From positions 1,488,001 through 1,552,000 of the forward strand of contig NZ_JAROCG010000001.1 of NCBI RefSeq assembly GCF_030433645.1: 64,000 nucleotides of DNA, in the 5' to 3' direction. The position numbers were made by a program, and so were the translations under genes. The DNA comes from Arthrobacter burdickii (GTDB taxonomy: Bacteria; Actinomycetota; Actinomycetes; Actinomycetales; Micrococcaceae). How positions within the stretch are numbered: the stretch's first letter is position 1; every line of letters begins with the position of its first letter. Under the pieces are notes generated by a model. That model made no database searches, was not told the DNA's origin, and saw nothing but the letters and a program-made list of their open reading frames with translations. This document shows, piece after piece, positions 1,974 through 7,152 of the stretch.

Positions 1974-2057
1974 CGCGCCGCGCCGTCGTTCCTGCGGCTT
2001 CGTACCGGCCAGTGTTTCGGCTGCCGTCGCGCCGCGCCGTCGTTCCTGCGGCTTCGT
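1974..2057. repeat. 30-bp direct repeat, two copies, period 54 bp
   Basis: Bases 1974-2003 and 2028-2057 are identical over 30 bp. The second copy ends inside the left outer arm of the palindromic element that starts at 2047, so the duplication copied part of that arm (TGCGGCTTCGT) to 1993-2003. It lies 16 nt after the stop of the polyprenyl synthase. Confidence 0.85.
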
Positions 2058-2147
2058 GCACGGCTTTCCCGGGGGAGTGTCCTTGATAATCGGCGTGTCC
2101 CGTGACGACACGCGTCCTCCACGATGAAACGCGTGCACGACGCCGCA
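2047..2147. repeat. Nested palindromic element, left copy (about 101 bp)
   Basis: Outer arms 2047-2062 and 2132-2147 are reverse complements at 15 of 16 positions and centre on GTGCAC. Inner arms GCGTGTC (2093-2099) and GACACGC (2107-2113) enclose a 7-nt loop. The inner hairpin begins 46 bp into the element, exactly as in the second copy at 3157-3256. The two copies share sequence between the arms and have the same orientation. Confidence 0.8.
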
Positions 2148-2317
2148 TCCTGGCGTGTCGCTGCACCCCCCTGTCGTCACTGGTAGTCATTTCCGCACGT
2201 AGCTGCACCCGCTGCGCGTCACGGGCGCCGACATGCGCCCGCCGCTGCGCCCCGCGGCCCGTCCACATAGCCGTGGGTTCAGCGCCGATCCCGGGCGCCA
2301 GCCTCTTGGCTTGGTCC

Positions 2318-3142
2318 ATGACGATCGAGCACATTCTCGCAGTATCGGGCGGTGTGGCTTCCACGGGTGCCCTGCTGCAGCGCGGGGTGGGGGAGCGGGC
2401 GATCGAGCGCTATATCGGCGACGGCAGGCTTCTCCGCGTTCGACGGGGAGTCCTGGCCCTTCCCGACGCGCCACCGGAGTTCATCCAGGCGGTCGATGCG
2501 GGAGCGCGGCTCACGTGTGTCTCCGCCGCGGTCCACTATGGGCTTTGGCTCGTCCGACCCGCGATCGATGTGCATGTCAGCCGGCCGACCCGCTCGGCCA
2601 CCGGCTGCATCAACCATCGCGTCGTCACCGTTCCTCCGCACCCTCGGCTGCCACTCGTCGGCCTGGCCGACGTGCTGGTGCACGTGCTGCAGTGCCGCCC
2701 TGCCGACGAGTCGGTCCCTATGGTCGAATGTGCTCTTCGACGCGGTGACACTGAGGCGGTGTTTCTCGAGTCTCGGCTGCCTGGAAAGCGCAACGGCAGG
2801 GCTCGCGCAGCGTTGGCGTCGGTCGACCTCACCGGCGAATCGCCGATCGAAGTCGTTACACGACTCCTCCTGCGCGGGGCCGGTCTCGGTGTTCGCTCCC
2901 AGGTCCGGATAGCGGGCGTGGGGCGGGTCGACTTCCTGGTCGAGGAATGCCTCGTCGTGGAGATAGACGGTGCCGCATTCCACTCCGACCGGCGGGCACT
3001 CCGGCTCGATCGCATGCGGAACAACATGACGGTCATCGGCGGCTACACCGTGCTTCGCTTCTGCTACGAGGACGTCATGTTCCAGCCGGAGGAGCTTCTC
3101 GCCATGGTCTTCAAGGCCCTTGGACGCCGACCGATCCGCTGA
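2318..3142 (+). CDS. DUF559 (Vsr-like, PD-(D/E)xK) endonuclease-domain protein
   Basis: 274 aa. Residues 1-60 look like the winged-helix of AbiEi-type antitoxins (repeated helices, then the RLLRVRRGVLAL wing). Residues 170-270 are a DUF559 domain with the nuclease signature GRVDFLV (Asp205), VVEIDG (Glu215, Asp217) and His222, plus an upstream Glu in GESPIE. Such proteins are multi-copy and of unproven function in actinobacteria, often automatically labelled AbiEi antitoxin; no partner toxin adjoins this one. The ATG at 2318 is used because family similarity begins there, though no clear ribosome site is seen. The gene is bracketed by two copies of a 100-bp nested palindrome, the right one starting 14 nt after the stop codon. 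Confidence 0.82.
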   Translation: MTIEHILAVSGGVASTGALLQRGVGERAIERYIGDGRLLRVRRGVLALPDAPPEFIQAVDAGARLTCVSAAVHYGLWLVRPAIDVHVSRPTRSATGCINHRVVTVPPHPRLPLVGLADVLVHVLQCRPADESVPMVECALRRGDTEAVFLESRLPGKRNGRARAALASVDLTGESPIEVVTRLLLRGAGLGVRSQVRIAGVGRVDFLVEECLVVEIDGAAFHSDRRALRLDRMRNNMTVIGGYTVLRFCYEDVMFQPEELLAMVFKALGRRPIR

Positions 3143-3156
3143 TATCGACGGCCAGA

Positions 3157-3256
3157 TGCGGCCTCGTGCACGCCTTTGACGGGCAATTGACTCTGATAAC
3201 CGGCGTGTCGTCGTAGGACACGCTCTTGTTGCCCAAAACCCGTGCACGAAGCCGCG
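3157..3256. repeat. Nested palindromic element, right copy (about 100 bp)
   Basis: Outer arms 3157-3172 and 3241-3256 are complementary at 14 of 16 positions. Inner arms GCGTGTC (3203-3209) and GACACGC (3217-3223) have a 7-nt loop. Geometry and orientation match the copy at 2047-2147. It lies between the DUF559 stop and the end of the convergent HIT gene, so it could also act as a terminator. Confidence 0.8.
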
Positions 3257-3328
3257 TTAGCGGGCCCCCGGCGGGACGGGAACCACGGCGAAGCCGGGGA
3301 ACGGCCGAACAGGGCAGTACAGGCGGGG

Positions 3329-6035: not shown

Positions 6036-6080
6036 CGGAGCGGACGCCGCGAGCGGCTCCGCGTCAGCGGACTGACGGGG

Positions 6081-6245
6081 GAACGACGCTCTCTGCAGGC
6101 GCTGTGCGGGAACGCACCGCCGTGCCCACCCGACGCGGCGGAACGACGCTCGCTGCAGGCGCCATGCGGGAATGCACCGGCGTGCCCACCCGACGGTGGA
6201 ACGACGCTCTCTGCAGGCGCCATGCGGGAACGCACCGGCGCCCAC
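6081..6245. repeat. Three-copy tandem repeat, about 58-60 bp
   Basis: Units begin with GAACGACGCT at 6081, 6141 and 6199. Each continues through a CTGCAGGCGC segment, GCGGGAA and CACCCGACG with a few substitutions; the last unit has a 4-base deletion. It fills the convergent gap between the hydrolase and RsbW-like genes. Unit spacing is continuous with no unique spacers, so it is not a CRISPR. Confidence 0.9.
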
Positions 6246-6265
6246 CTGACGCACGGCCCGAGGGG

Positions 6266-7078: not shown

Positions 7079-7111
7079 GTTCCTGAAGTGTTCCTGAAGT
7101 GTTCCTGAAGT
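7079..7111. repeat. 11-bp tandem repeat, three copies
   Basis: GTTCCTGAAGT occurs three times head to tail (7079-7089, 7090-7100, 7101-7111), followed by a diverged fourth unit. It lies in the 103-bp gap between the phosphatase stop and the STAS start, and could alter spacing or leader structure of the STAS transcript. Confidence 0.9.
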
Positions 7112-7152
7112 ATTCCTGGGTGTTTCGGAGCGGCGCCGCTCCCCGGCGCCGG

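Follow-up and report, generated by a model that had tools for sequence, protein, structure and literature searches.

A nuclease gene bracketed by two palindromic elements in Arthrobacter burdickii, possibly a self-maintaining unit

The stretch of DNA analysed here (the window) comprises 64,000 nucleotides (nt) of the Arthrobacter burdickii genome (contig NZ_JAROCG010000001.1, positions 1,488,001 to 1,552,000) and contains, near its left end, a gene for a DUF559-type nuclease that lies between two copies of a palindromic element of about 100 nt. The elements were scored with a covariance model (R1) built from 28 copies, 12 of which flank the gene or a gene remnant. The features of the locus are as follows.

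2047..2147, plus strand: left element, 101 nt, arm class GTGCAC (R1, 105.6 bits; this copy is itself in the model)
2047..2062, plus strand: 5' outer arm of the left element, TGCGGCTTCGTGCACG (fold; arm pairing over 52 elements)
2093..2113, plus strand: inner palindrome of the left element, GCGTGTC-n7-GACACGC (fold; alignment)
2132..2147, plus strand: 3' outer arm of the left element (fold; arm pairing over 52 elements)
2259..2267, plus strand: DnaA-box-like site CCGTCCACA(TAG), 59 nt upstream of the start codon, with 2 mismatches to TTGTCCACA
2318..3142, plus strand: gene for an AbiEi-like protein with a DUF559/EDxHD-type nuclease, 274 amino acids (Pfam, fold and sequence matches)
3157..3256, plus strand: right element, 100 nt, arm class GTGCAC (R1, 90.9 bits; this copy is itself in the model)
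3157..3172, plus strand: 5' outer arm of the right element (fold; arm pairing over 52 elements)
3203..3223, plus strand: inner palindrome of the right element (fold; arm pairing over 52 elements)
3241..3256, plus strand: 3' outer arm of the right element (fold; arm pairing over 52 elements)

An earlier note on this DNA, made from the sequence alone, had described two elements flanking the gene in the same orientation, with outer arms centred on GTGCAC, an inner GCGTGTC/GACACGC hairpin at a common offset and a right copy beginning 14 nt past the stop codon. This description holds in each of its parts: both elements lie on the plus strand, 14-15 pairs form around the core of the outer arms, the inner hairpin begins 46 nt into either copy, and the stop codon at 3142 is followed by the right element at 3157. 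The kinship of the two copies is likewise confirmed (identity is 75% in the first 67 nt and 73% in an alignment of about 100 nt, the latter with an expectation value (E) of 6.6e-12 in a search of a small locus set). Folded as DNA, the plus strands reach -29.6 kcal/mol (z -3.8) for the left element and -28.4 kcal/mol (z -5.2) for the right, and none of 200 shuffles folded as well in either case.

The protein carries the Pfam domains AbiEi_4 and DUF559, and its closest fold matches, compared by VIA-align, are AbiEi and Vsr-type nucleases. The nuclease half matches 3hrl (E 8e-5) and I-Bth0305I (E 0.057) in sequence, its acidic and His residues are invariant in 27 of 27 homologues, and a ratio of nonsynonymous to synonymous substitution (dN/dS) of 0.13-0.18 against four relatives indicates purifying selection. 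Judged from the Pfam and fold matches of the gene product, no DDE or HUH transposase is encoded by the gene and its elements. Proteins combining AbiEi and DUF559 are common in the bacterial family (a match at E 1e-40 in 196 of 395 genomes), and to our knowledge no role has been established for them. A search with PF18741 over the class gave listed matches mostly in very long open frames (more than 1000 codons) and was not used.

One conceivable role is that of an addiction or defence module, in which foreign or unmarked DNA is the target of the nuclease and the elements serve to titrate or restrain the enzyme. The purifying selection on the gene and a weak match of the protein to the PADLOC AbiEi models would suit such a module, as would the suggestion in PMC12907096 that breaks in Caulobacter may be due to a Vsr-like DUF559 protein. 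However, no AbiEii-type toxin is present in the six neighbouring frames of the window (a polyprenyl synthetase, a HIT protein, a glycine transporter, an alpha/beta hydrolase and two without a family), the protein has no plasmid match at E 1e-15 and a single weak match in one phage record, and a module alone does not explain the tandem arrays and relocation described below. This role is accordingly rated very improbable.

The bracketing of the gene recurs in relatives; neither this nor the dispersal of the elements described below was part of the earlier note. An R1 match lies on both sides of the gene in 27 of 30 homologous loci (L061-L090; weakest E 0.24), and in 21 of 24 when the six loci that contributed copies to R1 are set apart; a further locus, L070 (G013), has elements on both sides by reading. 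All 59 elements printed score better on the strand of the gene, with one near tie. The genes occupy at least six neighbourhoods as judged by blastn of their flanks, four of them common to several genomes, and those of L082 and L088 rest on the absence of a blastn match. For full-length gene matches, the first downstream element starts 5 to 161 nt past the last matched codon and the distance from the gene to the nearest upstream element is about 64-180 nt. More broadly, BLAST and R1 detect the element family (E 0.01) in 33 of the genus's 38 genomes. All 30 genomes with a close homologue (at least 48% identity) carry elements, the gene being only partial or containing a stop in three of them (G010, G018 and G022). 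Among the eight genomes without a close homologue, two (G003, G019) have gene fragments and elements, one (G023) has a single weak match, and five, including G020, which is only 68% complete, have none. This co-occurrence gives a Fisher p of 1.1e-4, with kinship not corrected for. A. agilis DSM 20550 (G001) harbours two units of different arm classes (L133, L064).

Elements also occur away from the gene. R1 gave 302 matches with both strands counted, and the 150 matches listed correspond to 131 distinct places. Among these, 31 places lie within 500 bp of a close DUF559 homologue, where about 0.07 would be expected, and 100 lie away from a DUF559 gene (within the genus), with 1-8 scattered copies per genome among the matches listed. 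The elements are a dispersed, lineage-specific family and are strongly enriched near DUF559 genes; a lack of such enrichment would, according to the earlier note, have spoken against a unit. The settings of 20 scattered sites, with orthologous sites counted separately, are 11 between convergent genes, 8 between tandem genes, 1 within a called frame and none between divergent genes; genes were called crudely by GC frame, a procedure that, in the window, overlooked the HIT and DUF559 genes alike.

These settings bear on the possibility that the AbiEi-like protein is a transcription regulator, with the elements as operators of its own gene and of targets elsewhere and with the nuclease as a secondary feature. 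AbiEi antitoxins bind inverted repeats at their own promoter, and the AbiEi fold, the operator-like inner palindrome and the distance of the nearest upstream element would all be in keeping with this. Nevertheless, the second element lies past the stop codon in the same orientation, the scattered sites include none between divergent genes (subject to the crude gene calling), the acidic and His residues of the nuclease are invariant, and a length of about 100 bp, four arms and tandem arrays would be more than an operator needs. A regulatory role of this kind is considered unlikely.

The outer arms differ by lineage, forming the classes GTGCAC, GTCGTTCC, TTCCCCAGG, CCTGCAGG, CCGTGCAGG, ATCCGGGG and others, with complementarity kept; the inner palindrome hardly varies among the 52 elements that flank units in the genus. 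Over these 52 elements, both partners of a pair changed in 297 cells (shuffles 112, standard deviation 9), the arm covariation score is 0.456 (shuffles 0.171; slid versions 0.081-0.125), and G-U pairs are few (52 of about 843 paired outer-arm cells). Arms that diverge wholesale, stay complementary and contain few G-U pairs are as would be expected of double-stranded DNA recognised by a protein. This pattern speaks against the plain alternative of the earlier note, namely that the elements are structured terminators or RNA elements duplicated locally. The stable hairpins, the position of the right copy immediately past the stop codon and the 11 of 20 scattered sites between convergent genes are what terminators would show. 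Local duplication leaves unexplained, however, the dispersal of the elements, the co-divergence of their arms and the same architecture at other loci; the elements are class-specific and tied to the gene across loci, and no Rfam family reached its gathering score in 7 loci, one tRNA excepted. Terminators thus appear most improbable. An RNA structure was also considered for the 28 copies of the first alignment (mostly of the GTGCAC class) and rejected; the arms do not covary there, so that an RNA reading is without support in that alignment, and the covariation arises between arm classes.

Arm classes also follow the units to which they belong. Left-right arm agreement is 28.2 within a unit (n=26) and 14.6 between units (n=676). 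For 45 of 53 scattered copies (40 fetched for this test and 13 of the earlier 20; L422 has two copies, of which one was used), the unit of the same genome ranks within the first 7 of 27, and the mean similarity of scattered copy to unit is 28.0 compared with 17.2 when genomes are permuted (0/5000 permutations as high). The misfits come from G005 (4), G016 (2) and G037 (2). In G037, a third unit has the class of the scattered copies. G005 groups by a species-proxy gene with the GTGCAC and GTCGTTCC genomes, and its scattered copies show those classes; its present unit groups elsewhere, and the nuclease data reject the proxy clade (approximately unbiased (AU) p 0.0018). Either transfer or old paralogy would serve as an explanation. 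The scattered elements L437 and L438 of G016 are unlike the class of its own unit, and their source unit was not found.

Filled, solo and empty sites were compared at several loci. The window's locus was surveyed in 24 genomes (the right flank was not recovered in G008, G023, G027 and G033): a clear solo element is present in three (G004, G011, G017), a degenerate solo element in two (G013, G021), gene remnants with an element in two (G003, G019), a DUF559 gene or pseudogene without a detectable element in three (G035-G037), and nothing was found in 14. Relatives that kept both elements without the gene would, according to the earlier note, speak against a unit; no clean case was seen at this locus in the 24 genomes, those without an intact gene showing one element, none or gene wreckage. 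At a second site there is one element in G002 and in G024, three of two classes in G003 and one of another class in G032, with none by eye in nine genomes. In G005, G007 and the window's genome (G000), the flanks of locus B are collinear and the unit is missing. The locus B unit of G021 (L066:1107-1178) lies about 120 nt from a tRNA gene. A second empty-site search, from L048, met rearranged flanks and was not used.

Filled and empty sites, together with terminal inverted repeats, could also be produced by an ordinary family of miniature inverted-repeat transposable elements (MITEs) that is moved by an unrelated transposase and flanks the gene by chance, the pair carrying it as cargo. Such a passive composite is quite unlikely, as the gene subfamilies each have their own, unrelated repeat pairs, the arms follow the lineage of the gene, and no element is present in five of the eight genomes that lack a close homologue.

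Repeats around the gene are found beyond the close relatives as well. In 56 distant loci, from named relatives at 38-46% identity (Arthrobacter, Pseudarthrobacter, Sinomonas and Paenarthrobacter; one, L141, is a 58% identical pseudogene), a direct repeat common to both gene flanks is present in 29 and absent from 27; the corresponding counts are 7 for 56 mismatched pairs, 7 for 300 random places of the window and 0 for the same 56 loci when shifted. Inverted repeats of the right size lie upstream in 20 of these loci, downstream in 19 and on both sides together in 6, against 0.6% of 462 controls, with new arms such as GGGGCACTTTG/CAAAGTGCCCC. A second gene group of the same genus (33-40% identity) has flank repeats in 12 of 19 loci, or 13 of 20 with one first-group locus added, and five of its loci (L254, L255, L256, L261, L264) have a TGTCTAGACA core with CCCAC/GTGGG arms. 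Elsewhere in the class, flank repeats occur in 14 of 27 usable loci (a single one from the same family, the remaining 13 from four others), and several are visibly palindromic; this count omits L311 and L319, on short contigs where the two flank windows overlap, and treats L321, also on a short contig, as a miss. A further 20 loci, 8 of them with flank repeats, are not independent because they possibly belong to the same species as the named-relative loci. Since flank repeats were detected by the likeness of the two sides, misses are expected, and about half of the loci are unexplained by such likeness.

The window's genome also contains an array of five 124-nt element units in tandem (C1:93925-94519; L049:2926-3520). 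Its middle three units are chimeric, with a GTCGTTCC-class left arm and a GTGCAC-class right arm, as would result if the two elements of a mixed pair had undergone unequal exchange at their inner palindrome. In G003 the orthologous site carries a single unit, and in G006 about one and a half.

Collectively, these results suggest, with a probability of roughly 0.6, that the nuclease gene and its two elements form one self-maintaining, possibly mobile unit. The observations that bear on it directly are the bracketing, the common orientation, the co-divergence of the arms, the match of most scattered copies to their own unit, the filled and empty sites and the conservation of the nuclease. More specifically, the AbiEi-like N-terminal half would enable the protein, probably as a dimer, to bind the inverted repeats that form the arms of its own class of element, and nicking or cutting, within the element or close by, would be the task of the C-terminal EDxHD/Vsr-type nuclease. 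As the cut DNA is repaired or recombines against other copies, the elements would be maintained, slowly multiplied at intergenic sites and built into tandem arrays, and the whole element-gene-element unit would occasionally be moved or removed, with a solo element remaining. A nicking enzyme, or one needing an extruded form of the element, would spare the host. We infer that the protein binds and cuts the element and that cutting drives its spread. The earlier note had proposed just such a nuclease-plus-element unit, an analogue of the repetitive extragenic palindromic (REP) sequences and their REP-associated tyrosine transposases (RAYT) with another enzyme, and the proposal gains support from the enrichment near DUF559 genes and from the lack, among the relatives surveyed, of any with both elements cleanly present and no gene.

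Several observations weigh against this interpretation. Binding, cutting and movement are steps deduced from sequence, and a nuclease that cuts its own flanks would endanger the host unless its action is confined to nicking or to a special form of DNA. Many scattered copies occupy orthologous sites across several species, so that movement of the element must be slow. At locus B, 26 of 30 stretches have no match to a broader model (R2) at E 0.5, which weakens the idea of a unit that simply homes into solo elements, and no consistent target-site duplication is readable in the flanks, the empty sites being too diverged. Two of the 30 homologous loci (L077 and L080) have no elements, both genomes carrying another, bracketed copy; in G003 and G019 elements persist beside gene fragments only. 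The scattered copies of G005 (4) and G016 (2) are of another class than the genome's unit, and 400 kb of the distant genome G355 contain no scattered copy of its own arm class. The 27 distant loci without a direct repeat count likewise, as does the small number (6) with inverted repeats on both sides, and the statistical tests within the genus share kinship.

The DnaA-box-like site upstream of the gene is itself conserved. The motif TTGTCCACA, listed as a high-affinity DnaA box for M. tuberculosis and S. coelicolor in Table 1 of PMC4285127, occurs with at most one mismatch upstream of 62 of 85 family genes and exactly in 24 (about 1 expected from shuffles), compared with 17 of 2000 random window stretches; in 50 of 55 distant genes a site with at most two mismatches lies at about -60. 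It is a speculative extension that DnaA may time the activity of the unit through this box, about 60 nt upstream of the gene. Near the DnaA-box-like TTGTCCACATAG at about -60 of AbiEi-DUF559 genes, a possible -10 site is visible by eye close to the start codon, which would suggest leaderless transcripts.

Among known systems, REP-RAYT (REPtron; TnpA-REP) is similar in that, according to PMC8266576 and PMC3733652, palindromic elements bracket a chromosomal enzyme gene, scattered copies are non-autonomous and enzyme and elements co-diverge. The unit described here would function similarly yet lacks the defining features of enzyme, tag and size: it has an AbiEi half and an EDxHD/Vsr-type nuclease in place of a Y1 HUH tyrosine transposase (IS200/IS605-like), its element of about 100 nt has an outer and an inner dyad and is not a 20-40 bp palindrome, its copies are in direct orientation, its scattered copies number 1-8 per genome among the matches listed, and no tetranucleotide comparable to the tag GTAG (or CGTC) is common to one end of the arm classes by reading. 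TIRtrons and MITEs likewise combine terminal inverted repeats around an enzyme gene with scattered short copies (PMC3733652), but TIRtrons use tyrosine (HUH) transposases, and here each end is a complete two-armed element. The EDxHD homing endonuclease I-Bth0305I has the same type of catalytic domain in fold and sequence; in contrast to it, the present gene is not in an intron or intein but lies between two whole elements, the target is uninterrupted, and an AbiEi-like DNA-binding half is present. Unlike the AbiEi antitoxin of the type IV AbiE system, the protein is fused to a nuclease, and the scanned neighbours include no AbiEii partner. The repair of T:G mismatches and a link to cytosine methyltransferases characterise Vsr proteins (PMC12907096); unlike Vsr and VsrA (DUF559), the gene here is accompanied by bracketing repeats. 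No description of such a unit was found among the papers listed by searches of the open-access literature, most subscription papers and all preprints lying outside that scope.

A wider proposal, held tentatively and with the balance somewhat against it, is that these units may constitute a novel, self-propagating kind of genetic unit that is widespread among actinomycetes. Every lineage of AbiEi-EDxHD nuclease would have at either end a double-dyad element of about 100 bp, private to it and orthogonal to the others, which it would cut or nick; elements and gene would spread through recombination timed by replication and linked to the DnaA box. The REP-RAYT way of life would then have been invented a second time, independently, with the transposase replaced by a restriction-type nuclease. 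If each AbiEi-DUF559 protein were bound to a private palindromic pair, the whole protein family would gain a testable function; the upkeep of dispersed palindromes would no longer be limited to HUH transposases but would extend to a restriction-type nuclease, and proteins matched to their arm classes would provide a natural set of sequence-specific DNA-binding nucleases.

Two further features adjoin the window's locus.

1980..1994, plus strand: relic arm of the GTCGTTCC element class, just outside the left element (14 of 15 letters; 0 of 4000 random stretches match as well)
3276..3291, plus strand: possible relic of the corresponding right arm of that older GTCGTTCC-class element (13 of 16 letters; 37 of 4000 random stretches equal it, a weak match)

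The left relic arm occurs again at about 2034-2048. The window's cassette may itself lie within an older solo GTCGTTCC-class element, the left side of this match being strong and the right side weak. The neighbouring genes, which are convergent, code for a polyprenyl synthetase and a HIT-domain protein, and the host genome measures 3.95 Mb, with Arthrobacter agilis and A. bussei as the nearest named relatives found. Elsewhere in the window, a 60-nt repeat in three tandem copies lies 3' of the alpha/beta hydrolase gene (6076-6253), and a tandem repeat of the 11-nt unit GTTCCTGAAGT occupies 7079-7118.
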